From a bacterium (lineage in GTDB: Bacteria; JAJRZV01): 5,907 nt of DNA. The notes beneath the pieces are model-generated. The model had not been told where the DNA came from, did no database searches, and saw only the letters and a program-made list of their open reading frames with translations. The stretch is taken from NCBI GenBank assembly GCA_024275095.1, contig JAJRZV010000055.1, positions 1 to 5,907 on the forward strand. The letters run 5' to 3'. Below are positions 21-5,907 of this stretch, piece by piece. The number at the start of each line of letters is the position of its first letter. The first letter of the stretch is position 1. A program made the translations under genes and the position numbers.

Positions 21-28
21 CCCTCCTT
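21..28 (-). promoter_or_regulatory. Shine-Dalgarno-like sequence downstream of the DUF1329 gene
   Basis: AAGGAGGG on the minus strand, 18 nt past the DUF1329 stop. The 20 nt left in the window after it contain no ATG. The only GTG overlaps the motif itself, and that frame reaches a TAA four codons later. A served gene would therefore have to start at or beyond the left edge, at a rather long spacing. It suggests, but does not prove, that the operon continues. Confidence 0.4.
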
Positions 29-46: not shown

Positions 47-1363
47 CTACTTGCCATAATTAAGAAAATTACTCGATGTAAACATAGAAGCATCAATGTC
101 CAGATTGAAAATGGTGGGATTCACCTTTGGATCTACACGGCTGGAGACAGAAGCACGGTTGCGCTTTTCATCTACCACAAAAGATATTTCCGCGGCTGAA
201 GCCGAAAGTTCTCCATCAGGAGATATGTAGTAACTCTGATTCATTACCTGCGTACGCCAGAAATCACCAGCACGATCCCAGCCCAGTTTAATGTGAATAC
301 GATATGTTTCTTTATCTATAATAAGTATCTGGCGACCAATGCTGTAATACGGATCCTTGGATTTACCCTCAACGAGATATACCGGGCGTTTGACCCAAAC
401 CCAATTTAAAGGCCACCATGCCGCTTTTTTCTGAGCGGGATGTTCGTAACCCCACTTGACCTGATACCGGGGTTGCATAAACGCCTTTTTTCCGTATTTT
501 GGAGCAGGAATTCCCTTCCTTGGAAAAGTAACGACTGTTCCCTCAGGTTCATCCGGCAGAAAGGGCACAAGCATTTCCGTTTCTCCTATGAGTTTCCACT
601 TGAAAAACTCAATCTTCCCTGAATAGCCGTTTACATCGTCAAGAATGTAATCCGTCGGACCTACAGGGTCAGACCTGTTTGCGGATGTTGTTCGCCTGAC
701 TCTTCTTATAGAGGGCACGTATGTCCACGTGGTATCCCACTTGCGCGGTGACTGCCAGCGCCACGTCAGCACTACCGTGCCGAAAAGGTCAGCAGGAGCG
801 AGGTAGATGGCGTTTTCCATATACGAGACACCGGATTTCACGCCCCTGATCTTTTTCGTGTTGAAATCTATGTTGAACCGGGCCACCTTGCCCACAACCT
901 CCACCTCTACAGAATGGCCCTTGAGTGTTCTGAGCACCCACATGGCTTCCTGTGTATTTGTTTGAAGTTCGGTGGCATAGAAATTCCACATGATCTTGGT
1001 ACCGGCCTGGGGGTCAGAAGCCTCGACAGCAGGAAAAGGCAAACCATATGGGAGGGTTATGCGTTTGCCAGTACGGGCTTCTACTATTCCCCCGTCTTTG
1101 TCAACTTTAAAACGACCTTTATTTTTAGAGGAAGCAGCGTAAAAACCAGGAGCATACACCTGTGACATGTCACCCTTTATTTCCCCAACGGTAATTTCGT
1201 AATCCCCTGTCGCCACACGTTTGGCGACTGACTCCGGAAGTAGATCCTTGTAAGCGTCAATGTTGCTTTTATTAATTTTCATCCCGGGAGACAGCTCTGC
1301 TGCGTGGCTGAAGGCCGGGATGAGCATCACAACTACTGCTTTTATTATCCATTTCCATCTCAT
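47..1363 (-). CDS. DUF1329 family periplasmic protein (LolA/LolB-like fold)
   Basis: Complete 438-residue protein, about the usual length for DUF1329 (PF07044). Residues 1-21 form a Sec signal peptide: basic start (MRWKWIIK), hydrophobic core VVVMLIPAF, then SHA before AELSPG, so cleavage after Ala21 is likely. There is no lipobox and no cysteine, which predicts a soluble periplasmic protein. The family core is clear: WTYVPSIRRVRR at about 213-224, then a DP...D.I.DD stretch, then FKWKLIGETEMLVPF at about 254-268. A second conserved block runs from about 321 to 372 (RPVYLVEG, IIDKETYRI, DRAGDFWR). The ATG at 1363 is chosen because an AGGAGG sits 7 nt upstream. It is the last gene visible in the operon, 34 nt after the acylase, and ends in TAG. 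From family knowledge, DUF1329 belongs to the lipoprotein-carrier-like fold group and often neighbours DUF1302. A role in binding or ferrying a hydrophobic ligand is inference. Family assignment is secure; biochemical function is unknown. Confidence 0.92.
   Translation of the reverse strand: MRWKWIIKAVVVMLIPAFSHAAELSPGMKINKSNIDAYKDLLPESVAKRVATGDYEITVGEIKGDMSQVYAPGFYAASSKNKGRFKVDKDGGIVEARTGKRITLPYGLPFPAVEASDPQAGTKIMWNFYATELQTNTQEAMWVLRTLKGHSVEVEVVGKVARFNIDFNTKKIRGVKSGVSYMENAIYLAPADLFGTVVLTWRWQSPRKWDTTWTYVPSIRRVRRTTSANRSDPVGPTDYILDDVNGYSGKIEFFKWKLIGETEMLVPFLPDEPEGTVVTFPRKGIPAPKYGKKAFMQPRYQVKWGYEHPAQKKAAWWPLNWVWVKRPVYLVEGKSKDPYYSIGRQILIIDKETYRIHIKLGWDRAGDFWRTQVMNQSYYISPDGELSASAAEISFVVDEKRNRASVSSRVDPKVNPTIFNLDIDASMFTSSNFLNYGK
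1301..1363 (-). other. Sec signal peptide of the DUF1329 protein
   Basis: Codons 1-21 encode a charged start with Arg and Lys, a hydrophobic core and Ser-His-Ala before AELSPG. Cleavage after Ala21 is the best site, with Ala22 as an alternative. There is no twin-arginine motif and no lipobox Cys. Confidence 0.85.
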
Positions 1364-1370
1364 ATCATCA

Positions 1371-1376
1371 CCTCCT
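1371..1376 (-). promoter_or_regulatory. Ribosome binding site of the DUF1329 gene
   Basis: On the minus strand AGGAGG lies 7 nt before the ATG at 1363. It is part of TAAGGAGGTGAT (1367-1378), a 12-nt perfect complement to the usual bacterial 16S rRNA 3' tail. This sets the start codon and suggests strong translation even though the gene is last of the three. Confidence 0.9.
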
Positions 1377-1397
1377 TAAATTTTTATTACTGATACT

Positions 1398-4367
1398 TTA
1401 CTGTGCCGACTCAGGCTCAAAAATGATCACATACGCAGCTGCTGCTTTGACTTCGTCCAGTTTGAACGGGAACTGCTTGTATCCATTGGCCCACCAGTAT
1501 TTTCTGAGCTGGTTGTCGTAATATTTGCTGCTGGGAATGGCCACATCACCACCGGGGATTGTGGTGTAAGCCACGGGGCCATCTGCCGTCATTTCTACAA
1601 TCATTCTGTAAGAAGGTCCTGAACTGTAAGAATAATCACCCTGGCTCTCAGACGTCATCAGATCAAAACCCGGATCTGATGCATCAACCACGAACTGACC
1701 GCCGTGCCTCGGAAAACCACTGAGTCCAAGAGCATTTATTACTGGATCAAATGGGGACGGGATGTTAAACATCTCAGCTGAATCCTCGGGATACGTCTTG
1801 GAAGGATCGTCGCCAAGATGACGTACTGTAAGAGTATGGAGCTTGCCCCAGAGCCAATCATCCACGTTGGGACCCAGTTTTTCCGTGAGTCCGCTGATTG
1901 CTTCAACAAAAGCTTTCAAAGCAATGTCATCCCTTGTCTCAACGGTGGTCGAAGTATTCCAGTCGTCCCAGAACACGCTTTCTCCCGTACGTGCATCACC
2001 AGTGTACTGGCATGGTTCACCAGGCTGGAGGTCAGGAGATGCACAGTTTTTGCGTTTGACGATGTTGTAAATGGCACGGGCATATGCCTGTGGGTGAATT
2101 GTTATAGTATTACCGTTTTCGTCCTTTCCGAGCTGGTCATCAAACGTAAAATGTACAAAATTGGACATCCATGCATGAAACACGGCTGCAGCAACAGAAC
2201 TATGAACAGTTGAAGGATCTGATGCAGGAACAAGCGAACCTGTCTCAGGATCGTACACATACCCTGAAGGACTTGTACATGAAGAGGCCCATTCTTCAAT
2301 ATATCCCAGAGCAGTCAGGGCACTCTCGCTGAGAGTATTTCGATTCTTTTCGGCTGCAGATGTCAGCACATTTACAAAGTCTTCACACAGACCGAGGTAA
2401 TCGTCTGCCTGAATGCTCATCATATCATCCACGGTCAGTTTCCTGCCGGAGTTAATCACATCCTCCAGGCGCTGGGTAATGCGGTCTGCACGATAGCCAA
2501 TATCGTAGAAGTATCCGTGATAATATCCATCTACGGTATTGTAGGTCATGGAAAGAGGAAGGTTGTTGGCTGTGACGATGTATCCCTTCTCAGGGTTTTC
2601 AAGCTGGGGTAACTCTTCAGAAGGCCAGTAGCCCTGCCATTCACAGTATCCCACGCCGGGCTGGGGCAAATACAGTGGATTGGGCTGGCCTCCGAGTTCA
2701 GGATTGGTACATTTCGATGGATAGCGTATCGGAATATTTGCATATGGGAACCACCCGATGTTTCCGTCTCTGTCTATGACATTGTGATTCTGTGCGCCTA
2801 CTTTGAACTTTTGCAGTGCGTTTTTCGCATCGTCAATACCCTGGGCAGCGAGCAACCCCTTGAAGGCACCCAGCTCATCAGAAGCTTCAAATCCTGTCCA
2901 GCGAACAGTAACGAGATACTCAGGGTCACCATTATCATCCGTAAGCATTCCGACGACCGGGCCATGTCCATCAACAACGTAGTAGGTTACAGGGAGTATG
3001 CATACATCCTGGCCCATACTTTCACTCAGGTCCTGGGGTGTACCAGCATCCACCATCATGTCTTTGAGCTCATCAATAATATCCTGTGATATTCCACAGG
3101 GGTCCTCTGCATCCGAGTCCCGTTGATAAAGAATAAGCTCCACCGCCGAGTCGAGAGGCTTCTGCCCACCCTGTGAAAGCACCACCCAGTCTTTCATGGC
3201 ACCGGCAGACGAGACAATTGGTTCCAGATAAAAATCCGTCACATCATAACCGGTTGTCGTTTCTCCCCAGGCCACGTAATCGGTAAATCCAATCACTATC
3301 CCGGGAGACATGGGAAACATGACACCTGCGGCGTTAAGGGTCCCTCCCATGGCCTTGGTGTTGATGTGCACTTCATGAAACACGGGAGGCTGCTGAAGCG
3401 AAAGATGAGGGTCATTGGCGAGAATGGGATTGCCTGAGCTGGTCAGCTCGCCCCTCACACTCCAGTTGTTGGATGTGGGCTGTAAGCCTGTAATCCTGCG
3501 AAGAAGCTTCATGTAACCCTTAAAAGATTGAATTGCTCCTTTTGCAGCAAGAGGTGGAGTCACGGCGGATGTCACAGCTCCAACTGCTCCGCCGGAACCA
3601 GGCTGATCGATTACGGCTCCACGAACTGGATATACGCTGAAAATATCCTGGAGCCACCCGAGGGCCGTGGTCTGTGCTGAGGTGACATCCGAGGCATAAC
3701 CCCGCGCGAGAAGTTGCCCTGTAATGTTTTCCCAGATATTCATAAATTCCAGACCAAAGGTGCCTTCATCATCAAAGCTCAGCAGAAATGTCATGAGTCT
3801 GGCAAAAGCAAGTGAATCTATTGCTGACCATCCAGGTTCTCCGTCCGTCCCCAGTATTCCTTCGTAAATGGTGGCGGGATTCGTTATGCCCTGCGCGACG
3901 AATTCCAGAGGCATATCCTCGATACTCATGCTTTGCAGGTAAGCGTTTACACCCTCTGCGTAGCGATCGAGAAATTCTTTCTCGGTATCATCCAGAAGAG
4001 TTTTGTATACCTCCACAGCCACATTGAAAAAGCCCATCATGCGTGCCTGCACGTCGGTAGGAATATAACTCTGGCCAACAATGATAGAAAGCTGGCCTGT
4101 TGCAGCTCCGCGTTGAATGATCATCTGAAAAAGCCTGTCATGGGCATGAATGTATCCCTGCACAAAAGCCACATCACCCTCGTTCGCTCCATAAATATGA
4201 GGCACTCCGTAAATATCTCTGACAACTTCCACGCTGGAGATAAGCCCTGTCAACTTCACGACTTCATTAGCAGCCAGTCCTGTTGCCGGACCTGTACCTG
4301 CACTTTTTTTACTACACCCTGCGGCGAGTAACACCGCTGCCGCAAAAATGGTAAACCACTTTTTCAT
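1398..4367 (-). CDS. Penicillin acylase-family Ntn hydrolase, predicted lipoprotein
   Basis: A 989-residue amidohydrolase of the penicillin amidase family (PF01804). Members are made as one precursor that cuts itself so that a Ser becomes the beta-chain N-terminus and nucleophile. The alpha-chain signature is near the start (VVRDIYGVPHIYGANEGDVA at about 48-67, then QGYIHAHDRLFQM). The nucleophile is Ser299 in LQPTSNNWSVRG, giving alpha about 18-298 and beta about 299-989. Other visible sites are His321 (beta-23, in ANDPHL), Asn527 (AQNHNVIDRDGNIGW, the oxyanion-hole position), Arg548 (IPIR), and the C-terminal GPSYRM and IPGGD blocks. The start at 4367 is preferred over the in-frame ATG at 4406: it has GGAGGT 7 nt upstream and opens directly with a lipoprotein signal (MKKWFTIFAAAVLLAAGC). 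The protein is longer than many relatives (roughly 750-850), with extra beta-chain segments carrying cysteines. It lies between DUF1302 and DUF1329 genes. The substrate is unknown: beta-lactam side chains, acyl-homoserine lactones and other N-acyl amides are all used within the family. Confidence 0.94.
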   Translation of the reverse strand: MKKWFTIFAAAVLLAAGCSKKSAGTGPATGLAANEVVKLTGLISSVEVVRDIYGVPHIYGANEGDVAFVQGYIHAHDRLFQMIIQRGAATGQLSIIVGQSYIPTDVQARMMGFFNVAVEVYKTLLDDTEKEFLDRYAEGVNAYLQSMSIEDMPLEFVAQGITNPATIYEGILGTDGEPGWSAIDSLAFARLMTFLLSFDDEGTFGLEFMNIWENITGQLLARGYASDVTSAQTTALGWLQDIFSVYPVRGAVIDQPGSGGAVGAVTSAVTPPLAAKGAIQSFKGYMKLLRRITGLQPTSNNWSVRGELTSSGNPILANDPHLSLQQPPVFHEVHINTKAMGGTLNAAGVMFPMSPGIVIGFTDYVAWGETTTGYDVTDFYLEPIVSSAGAMKDWVVLSQGGQKPLDSAVELILYQRDSDAEDPCGISQDIIDELKDMMVDAGTPQDLSESMGQDVCILPVTYYVVDGHGPVVGMLTDDNGDPEYLVTVRWTGFEASDELGAFKGLLAAQGIDDAKNALQKFKVGAQNHNVIDRDGNIGWFPYANIPIRYPSKCTNPELGGQPNPLYLPQPGVGYCEWQGYWPSEELPQLENPEKGYIVTANNLPLSMTYNTVDGYYHGYFYDIGYRADRITQRLEDVINSGRKLTVDDMMSIQADDYLGLCEDFVNVLTSAAEKNRNTLSESALTALGYIEEWASSCTSPSGYVYDPETGSLVPASDPSTVHSSVAAAVFHAWMSNFVHFTFDDQLGKDENGNTITIHPQAYARAIYNIVKRKNCASPDLQPGEPCQYTGDARTGESVFWDDWNTSTTVETRDDIALKAFVEAISGLTEKLGPNVDDWLWGKLHTLTVRHLGDDPSKTYPEDSAEMFNIPSPFDPVINALGLSGFPRHGGQFVVDASDPGFDLMTSESQGDYSYSSGPSYRMIVEMTADGPVAYTTIPGGDVAIPSSKYYDNQLRKYWWANGYKQFPFKLDEVKAAAAYVIIFEPESAQ
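3471..3476 (-). other. Autoproteolytic site and nucleophile codons (Thr298-Ser299) of the acylase
   Basis: The Thr codon at 3474-3476 and the Ser codon at 3471-3473 encode the scissile pair in LQPTSNNW. In this family cleavage before this Ser frees it as the Ntn nucleophile. The SNNW context followed by ILANDPHL makes the assignment firm; that self-cleavage occurs in this protein is inferred. Confidence 0.88.
4314..4325 (-). other. Lipobox of the acylase (Ala-Ala-Gly-Cys)
   Basis: Codons 15-18 counted from the 4367 start encode AAGC after a hydrophobic core (IFAAAVLL), a usable signal peptidase II site with Cys18 as the lipidated residue. Leu is at -4 rather than the commoner -3, which is a permitted variant. 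Ser follows the Cys, so there is no Asp inner-membrane retention signal of the E. coli type. Outer-membrane anchoring is therefore the simplest guess, if the host sorts lipoproteins by the same rule. Confidence 0.8.
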
Positions 4368-4374
4368 GGCTGGC

Positions 4375-4380
4375 ACCTCC
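4375..4380 (-). promoter_or_regulatory. Ribosome binding site that fixes the acylase start at 4367
   Basis: GGAGGT on the minus strand, 7 nt before the ATG at 4367. The alternative in-frame ATG at 4406 has only a weak purine run upstream (GAAAGAAG). It would add 13 polar residues (MKECPKINQEVPA) in front of the lipoprotein signal, within which this ribosome binding site would be translated as Gln-Glu-Val. Confidence 0.9.
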
Positions 4381-4428
4381 TGATTAATTTTTGGACACTC
4401 CTTCATATCACGCTTCTTTCGTCGCTGG

Positions 4429-5907
4429 TTACAACATATATTCCAGCTTCAACATGATGTTGTCCCTGTCTCTGAAAAATCCAATTCCAGCATAATCACC
4501 GCCCAGGTAACTGTACTGTAAAAGTACCCTGAAGGGCTCCTTGTAATACTGAAGAGATGGCTGGATAAGATATGAAAAACTATCAAAGTCGCCGAATTCC
4601 AGCGCTCCGGCAATCTGGGGTGAAAGATATCCGCGTTTGAGTGGATAGCCGGTCTTGATAAGAAACGTGGCTTTGTAATTATTGGCTTTCATTTCTGTAA
4701 AAAATGGTCTTGAAACCGTTACTGAATCACCACCGGGTATGGGTATACGTGCCACGAGAGCATCATACTGTACTGTATAAGCAGCCCCTTTCCTGAGGTT
4801 GCGCCAGTTCTCGCCAAAGAACTGAATCGAGATGAAAAACGTCTGGCGTGGATTGAGAAAACGAATCCATATGTTGTGATCCAGTCCCACCGACCACCGG
4901 ATGACATCTGAACGTGGAAGGGTTCCATATTGCCCTTTCGCAATAATATTCGACTGTTGCAGAGCCATGTTTAACCACGCAGCGTAGTCATTGGCTCTGC
5001 CCGGATCCAGTTCAAGTGCAGGTCCGAGAATGGGCATATTCACCTCGGGAATGAAATAGGGATGGTCCCAGAAATACGCCATTTCTGCTCTGAATATGGT
5101 ATAGGGAGAGAAAGGCAGCGGGCCCGAGAGCGTAGCACCTGTCACCATGATTCTCGGGTACACCAGTTCAATCTCAGGTATACCTGCAGGGTAAGCTTGC
5201 TGAAACGCCTGTTGAGCCGAGGGAACAGCCGAGAGTTGCTGAGCAGTGGAAGTATTGAATCTGAGACGCGGAGTGGGTAATTCAGGATATGTCCAGTAAT
5301 TGGCAATACTCATTGTAATATCCAGAAAATTTAAAAGCAGCCTCGTACCACCACGTGCATCTTTCCAGTCCTTCTTCTCTTCCAGCACAAAGCTCAGGGG
5401 TGTTGGCGGGCCTGTAACAATGGACCACGGTCCATCAGGCGGAATAGTGGGTCCTTTCGTAAGTGCGGGAGAAGGTTCTATAAATCCTTCCAGTGAAATG
5501 TTATAAACAGGGCCAAAAGAACCCAGATCCAGCAAACCTTTAATCATAAAGGAAGGGACACGTCTTTCATCCAGCGCGATGAGAAATCCTCCAAATGTCT
5601 GGTCCAGTGGATTGATGTTATCGAGAATACGAAAGAGATCTGTTTCGCCCCACGAAATGTTCTGTTTTCCTATGCGCATGTTCAAACGACCGAAAAGGCG
5701 GAAGTCACCGTACGCCTCAAACAATCTTTTGCGAAGCCTGAGAGCATCTCGTGTTTCTTCACTGATACGAGTCCGGTAGAGATCTGGACCGTAATCATAA
5801 ATACCGTCATACTCAACACGCACTCCCATGAAAAATTTGATGTGGTCCAGCGTGAGCTTTTCCTTGAGAAACTCAAGCGCTGGAGTGATGCGCTCTCGCC
5901 TGGAAAG
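4429..5907 (-). CDS. DUF1302 family predicted outer-membrane beta-barrel protein (N-terminus cut by window edge)
   Basis: The reading frame is open to the right edge, adding 26 codons (LSRRERITPALEFLKEK...) before the first in-frame ATG at 5829. That ATG is almost certainly internal: it falls just before the conserved VRVEYDGIYDYGPD segment and no signal peptide follows it. The visible part is 492 residues ending in TAA. The DUF1302 (PF06980) hallmark is RIGKQNISWGETDLFRILDNINPLD at about visible residues 78-102, i.e. R.GKQ..WGE.D...D.NP.D. The rest has alternating aromatic/polar strands typical of barrels (IWIRFL, FFISIQFFG, SFSYLIQPSLQYY, FRVLLQYSYLGG), and a last strand NIMLKLEYML that resembles a C-terminal beta-signal. 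No cysteine is present in the visible part. Long Pro-rich and Gln/Ala-rich segments are likely loops. It is first in the visible gene order, 61 nt ahead of the acylase. The role as a channel or receptor for hydrophobic compounds is inferred from family context only. Confidence 0.88.
   Translation of the reverse strand, partial: LSRRERITPALEFLKEKLTLDHIKFFMGVRVEYDGIYDYGPDLYRTRISEETRDALRLRKRLFEAYGDFRLFGRLNMRIGKQNISWGETDLFRILDNINPLDQTFGGFLIALDERRVPSFMIKGLLDLGSFGPVYNISLEGFIEPSPALTKGPTIPPDGPWSIVTGPPTPLSFVLEEKKDWKDARGGTRLLLNFLDITMSIANYWTYPELPTPRLRFNTSTAQQLSAVPSAQQAFQQAYPAGIPEIELVYPRIMVTGATLSGPLPFSPYTIFRAEMAYFWDHPYFIPEVNMPILGPALELDPGRANDYAAWLNMALQQSNIIAKGQYGTLPRSDVIRWSVGLDHNIWIRFLNPRQTFFISIQFFGENWRNLRKGAAYTVQYDALVARIPIPGGDSVTVSRPFFTEMKANNYKATFLIKTGYPLKRGYLSPQIAGALEFGDFDSFSYLIQPSLQYYKEPFRVLLQYSYLGGDYAGIGFFRDRDNIMLKLEYML

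Follow-up and report, generated by a model that had tools for sequence, protein, structure and literature searches.

The cassette of DUF1302, DUF1329, YCF48 and RND genes occurs in several bacterial lineages. It has been connected with the ability to grow on, or to tolerate, surfactants, monoterpenes and aromatic compounds, but its chemistry is unsettled, as is the direction in which it works. The AmeABCD system of Castellaniella defragrans brings together DUF1302, DUF1329, a YCF48/BNR-type protein and an HAE3 RND pump. Monoterpenes are tolerated less well when AmeABCD is deleted, and insertion of a transposon in ameB reduces growth on them (PMC6394551). A 'nanopod' cluster of the benzene-degrading ORM2a comprises a porin-like protein, DUF1329, a YCF48-related protein and an MMPL transporter, and high expression of a DUF1329–YCF48–MMPL cluster is reported in the benzene degrader (PMC13101534). 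The same paper relates that deletion of a Delftia DUF1329 gene impairs growth on phenanthrene; the gene names were not found in the text searched of the Delftia paper that it cites. In Pseudomonas putida the DUF1302 and DUF1329 genes are required for the use of Tween 20, and correlated phenotypes connect them with a periplasmic protein and an efflux transporter (PP_0765/PP_0766 and PP_2018/PP_2019; PMC10866462). Co-regulation of the cassette with aromatic catabolism has been predicted in Betaproteobacteria (PMC6449761). A preliminary description of the DNA studied here held that DUF1302 and DUF1329 have no settled function. This was too strong, as genetics tie the cassette to hydrophobic substrates (PMC6394551, PMC10866462, PMC13101534).

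The locus described here contains counterparts of all four AmeABCD proteins, the RND pump being probably of the HAE3 type, together with an acylase of the S45 family, which AmeABCD lacks. In the ORM2a cluster a universal stress protein and a hypothetical protein are found where our operon has the acylase, while the P. putida components lie at two loci rather than one, and an acylase is not mentioned. Without the acylase, the operon is the known four-component AmeABCD or 'nanopod' cassette, and the new part is the enzyme.

The three genes of the window

The stretch of DNA analyzed (the window) is the entire contig C17, 5907 bp in length, of a 2.45-Mb draft genome that we call G000. This is the only sampled member of its phylum in the genome set used. 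For the phylum, JAJRZV01 or Candidatus Bobupiota, a published list gives a single genome, 2.45 Mb in size with 47.78% GC, obtained from an active black smoker (PMC11382960). Genes for DUF1302, an S45 acylase and DUF1329 run head to tail, all on the minus strand, with the following features.

5767–5907, minus strand: 141 bp identical to the end of contig C90, present in C90 and C17 only
4429–5907, minus strand: DUF1302 gene, 5′-truncated by the contig end (PF06980, 2.7e-18)
1398–4367, minus strand: gene for an S45 penicillin-acylase family lipoprotein of 989 aa (PF01804, 2.3e-149)
4314–4316, minus strand: codon of Cys18 in the acylase lipobox LLAAGC, the predicted site of lipid attachment
3471–3473, minus strand: codon of catalytic Ser299 of the acylase, predicted residue 1 of the beta chain by alignment with solved beta chains
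3405–3407, minus strand: codon of acylase His321, beta-chain position 23, in the ANDPH motif
47–1363, minus strand: gene for a DUF1329 protein of 438 aa, LolA/LolB-like and periplasmic (PF07044, 3e-41; LolA_like, 8.5e-12)
22–28, minus strand: AAGGAGG motif 3′ of the DUF1329 gene, seen in the sequence

A strong ribosome site lies ahead of each of the three genes. The gaps are 61 nt between DUF1302 and the acylase and 34 nt between the acylase and DUF1329, and no promoter-like or terminator-like match was found in either. These lengths presuppose an acylase start at 4367, where the ATG is preceded by the strong site CAGGAGGTGCCAGCC; an alternative in-frame ATG at 4406 would leave a gap of 22 nt after DUF1302. 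The 46 nt between the end of the DUF1329 gene and the end of the window contain no terminator-like match, and the AAGGAGG within them is possibly the ribosome site of a further gene past the contig end.

The DUF1302 protein is, from knowledge of the family, presumably an outer-membrane barrel. A barrel is also drawn from the work on P. putida (PMC10866462). Sequence searches yielded no solved relative of DUF1302, and AlphaFold models of DUF1302 and the acylase, made from two-row alignments, had a mean pLDDT of about 30. The signal sequence of DUF1302, MKSKWLWTVTIVGLFMMGVPRAQG, falls beyond the window and was read from C90. The DUF1329 protein has a signal-peptide-like N-terminal stretch, and gives profile matches to solved LolA-like structures. 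The preliminary description had reported three co-directional genes with these same gaps, all of whose products were predicted to be exported; it did not mention that the window is an entire contig or that its end truncates DUF1302. Our gene calls agree with the layout, and the signal of DUF1302, the lipobox of the acylase and the signal-like start of DUF1329 bear out the prediction of export.

A probable five-gene operon in two phyla

When the RND protein of a second genome, G150, was used to search G000, a protein 67% identical to it was found close to the end of contig C90. The final 141 bases of this contig are exactly those with which the reverse-complemented window begins, and within G000 this sequence is present in those two contigs only. 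Across this unique overlap the RND and YCF48-like genes join the genes of the window. On joining the contigs the DUF1302 frame remains open, giving a protein of 588 aa with a signal-peptide-like start, and its gene overlaps that of the RND protein by 4 nt. The RND protein matches PF03176 (MMPL) above cut-off; its best NCBIfam model is HAE3 (TIGR00921), at 141.6 bits against a cut-off of 351.9. Upstream of it on C90 is a YCF48/BNR-type gene, with PF14870 matches in its ORFs and in G150. The order over the join is therefore YCF48-like beta-propeller protein, RND pump of probable HAE3 type, DUF1302, acylase and DUF1329, and we infer that the window is the 3′ part of an operon of five or more genes, read as a single transcript. 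An assembly chimera at the join was rejected on the strength of the unique overlap, the kept frame and the identical order in G150 and a third genome, G289.

In G000 the YCF48-like gene (locus L098 on C90, 14766–15865) is split by a frameshift into two overlapping reading frames, which could be either a sequencing error or a real loss; in G150 it is one intact ORF (L055:17602–18687). Acyl-CoA dehydrogenase genes are found elsewhere on C90, and would be weakly compatible with the use of fatty acids. The operon is perhaps longer than five genes, because a lipoprotein gene with a CarboxypepD_reg domain comes next after DUF1329 in both G150 (L055:8408–9100, minus strand) and G289 (L059:11154–12134, plus strand; phmmer 1.8e-41). 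It may be a sixth member of the operon; the window ends before that position.

The second phylum came from a DUF1329 search of 386 genomes spread over bacterial families, from which loci giving long matches, with a few weaker ones, were examined together with their surroundings. G150 and G289 (locus JACPQY010000085.1) are the two sampled genomes of phylum JACPQY01 (Ca. Figaniota), listed with two groundwater genomes of 3.29–4.72 Mb. Both have the acylase, and the five-gene order is identical. The combination was found in these three genomes only, and its return in both genomes of a second phylum, in unchanged order, excludes a chance arrangement. Comparing G000 with G150 and G289, identities are 68–69% for the RND protein, 68% for DUF1329 with both orthologues, 56–60% for DUF1302 and 52–54% for the acylase. 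The last is the least conserved of the four proteins compared (52–58% among all three orthologues), and for each of the four G150 and G289 are each other's closest.

The acylase and the specificity of its linkage

The acylase matches PF01804 over profile positions 1–674 of 675 (500 bits), and is the sole S45 match in G000. Its Ser299, in an SNNW motif common to relatives, aligns with residue 1 of solved S45 beta chains, including a chain of PvdQ. His321 has the same spacing in distant relatives, and the ANDPH motif is kept in all three orthologues and most relatives. Membership of the S45 family predicts both self-cleavage and amide hydrolysis. The N-terminus comprises a signal peptide and a lipobox whose Cys18 is shared by the three orthologues without exception, and it is probably cleaved there by signal peptidase II. 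A further eight cysteines are conserved in all three operonic acylases and not, as a set, in relatives, a pattern that would be fitting for a protein exported and held by disulphide bonds.

PvdQ of Pseudomonas aeruginosa, a periplasmic Ntn acylase that also belongs to PF01804, had been offered as a precedent in the preliminary description. It serves as an analogy only, and is not the nearest relative. The window enzyme scores 43.7 bits against the PvdQ equivalog model of NCBIfam, where the cut-off is 950, and the closest of the solved relatives are D-succinylase and the penicillin G acylases, with PvdQ more distant. The best solved match of the acylase profile is D-succinylase (PDB 7EA4, 7EBY; 2.2e-44), yet this too is distant, and the match falls into three separate stretches. 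PvdQ has a siderophore context; none was found near our operon in the flanks examined.

How general is the association of an acylase with the cassette? We surveyed 80 DUF1329 loci, 60 from a sample of one large phylum and 20 from other searches; the large phylum is taken as Pseudomonadota, since its cassettes resemble those of known members. The commonest arrangements were DUF1302–DUF1329–YCF48–RND (32 loci), DUF1302–DUF1329 (20) and YCF48–RND–DUF1302–DUF1329 (6). Thus DUF1302–DUF1329 precedes YCF48–RND in most cassettes, whereas our operon begins with YCF48–RND, as do the six loci of the last, acylase-free type. An S45 acylase was nearby in only two of the 80 loci, those of G150 and G289. Around 19 distant S45 acylase loci no cassette genes were found, several of those contigs being short. 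In a tree the three linked acylases form one clade (100/100) on a long stem, with all sampled unlinked acylases outside. No match was obtained on scanning genome contigs with the single acylase as query, or viral contigs with the acylase alignment, and among the literature searched no paper was found that connects DUF1302 to a penicillin acylase, or an RND/LolA operon to any protein of that family. A role in a defence system was considered and rejected, there being no PADLOC match for the three window proteins.

The proposal that the three genes form a module is therefore upheld, with the RND pump and YCF48-like protein as constant partners in two phyla. The survey of gene order that the preliminary description had called for shows that the order is not confined to one clade with unrelated flanks, nor do the acylases group with unlinked relatives. 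The further idea, that from the acylase one can read the cargo of DUF1302/DUF1329 systems at large, is not supported by the survey. With an acylase absent near 78 DUF1329 loci, and 19 acylase loci unlinked, the enzyme is a rare conserved add-on and not a general clue to that cargo.

Other arrangements were seen in the course of the analysis. G000 has a second, more distant operon (L037 on C8, 7697–13291, minus strand) of a TetR-like regulator, an RND pump, a LolA_like protein that is weakly DUF1329-like and a DUF1302-like barrel. Close by (2517–6828, minus strand), three proteins resembling glycine-cleavage H were recognized by eye around an NrfD/HybB-like membrane protein. In a tandem cassette of genome G462 (L135 on its contig C3, 5824–17095) DUF1329 occurs three times and DUF1302 twice, and a single YCF48 gene and a single RND gene come after them. 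Three adjoining DUF1329 genes of mixed orientation are found on a short deltaproteobacterial contig (L060, VBKG01000004.1, 1–4243).

Proposed function and alternatives

The most likely role of the cassette, in our analysis, is the movement of hydrophobic compounds through the envelope, and the window cassette would share it. That the operon encodes such a trans-envelope transporter, together with a periplasmic acylase that cuts its substrate, has in our judgement an even chance of being right. Its basis in the sequence is the gene content and order, the recurrence in two phyla, the catalytic serine and histidine, the lipobox and the specificity of the linkage; we infer the substrate, direction and coupling. 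The mechanism draws on knowledge of the families, on published relatives and on gene order. An acylated amphiphile would enter the periplasm, through DUF1302 if imported or through the RND pump if exported, and so an N-acyl cargo may be processed in transit. There the acylase, which would cleave itself ahead of Ser299 and face the periplasm from a lipid anchor, would hydrolyse the acyl-amide bond of the amphiphile. DUF1329 would then pick up the hydrophobic product, in all probability the acyl chain, for transfer between the barrel and the RND/YCF48 complex. The acylase would then be a lineage-specific fifth component of an AmeABCD-type cassette. Since the cassette works without it in most genomes, the acylase is not required for transport as such.

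Other readings of the locus must be weighed against this. The RND pump might export an N-acylated precursor from the cytoplasm, the acylase removing its tail as PvdQ does, with DUF1329 and DUF1302 releasing the product or the tail. The co-encoded pump and the family relationship to PvdQ, known from the family and seen in weak profile matches, are consistent with such a maturation, but neither C90 nor the flanking DNA in G150 and G289 showed biosynthetic genes of the peptide synthetase or siderophore kind, and the shortfall against the equivalog model also speaks against it; we consider it quite improbable. We think it improbable too, if marginally less so, that the acylase degrades foreign amides such as acyl-homoserine lactones or beta-lactams at the outer membrane, sharing the operon only for the protection that the pump affords. 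S45 relatives include acylases of both these classes, and AmeABCD is reported as a tolerance system (PMC6394551), but the fixed place of the gene between DUF1302 and DUF1329 in two phyla suggests a closer functional coupling. Or there may be no functional link at all, the acylase having been inserted into the cassette in a common ancestor and simply carried along. The rarity of the linkage (two of the 80 surveyed loci outside the window) and the lower conservation of the acylase would fit. Yet the catalytic residues, the lipobox and the eight extra cysteines have been maintained at 52–58% identity, and the order is unchanged in all three genomes, so we rate passive carriage as low as maturation during export.

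A separate matter is origin, which leaves the proposed function unaffected. It is possible, but on balance unlikely, that the whole cassette was transferred horizontally between the two phyla rather than inherited from a shared ancestor. The distribution is very patchy: when 84,980 species were scanned for two peptide patterns conserved in this DUF1329 subfamily, G289 was the sole close relative to emerge, although exact seven-residue patterns can miss relatives. Identities of 52–69% between members of different phyla point the same way. Against this, the cassette genes match the base composition of each host, and thus no recent transfer is visible.

Returning to the transporter with its periplasmic acylase, a more integrated form can be envisaged, in which the acylase docks on DUF1302 or DUF1329, cleaves acyl-amide lipids at the outer membrane and passes the freed chain straight to the RND/DUF1329 route. 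This is tentative, and we think it rather unlikely; if true it would amount to an envelope system of a new kind, serving scavenging or detoxification in two phyla about which little is known. As for the module itself, it is real and rare, and is not a key to all DUF1302/DUF1329 systems. Nevertheless the enzyme-bearing variant provides a handle, because the acylase is a purifiable enzyme whose substrate would indicate what that transporter carries, and a specific, testable operon is now at hand from two almost unstudied candidate phyla.
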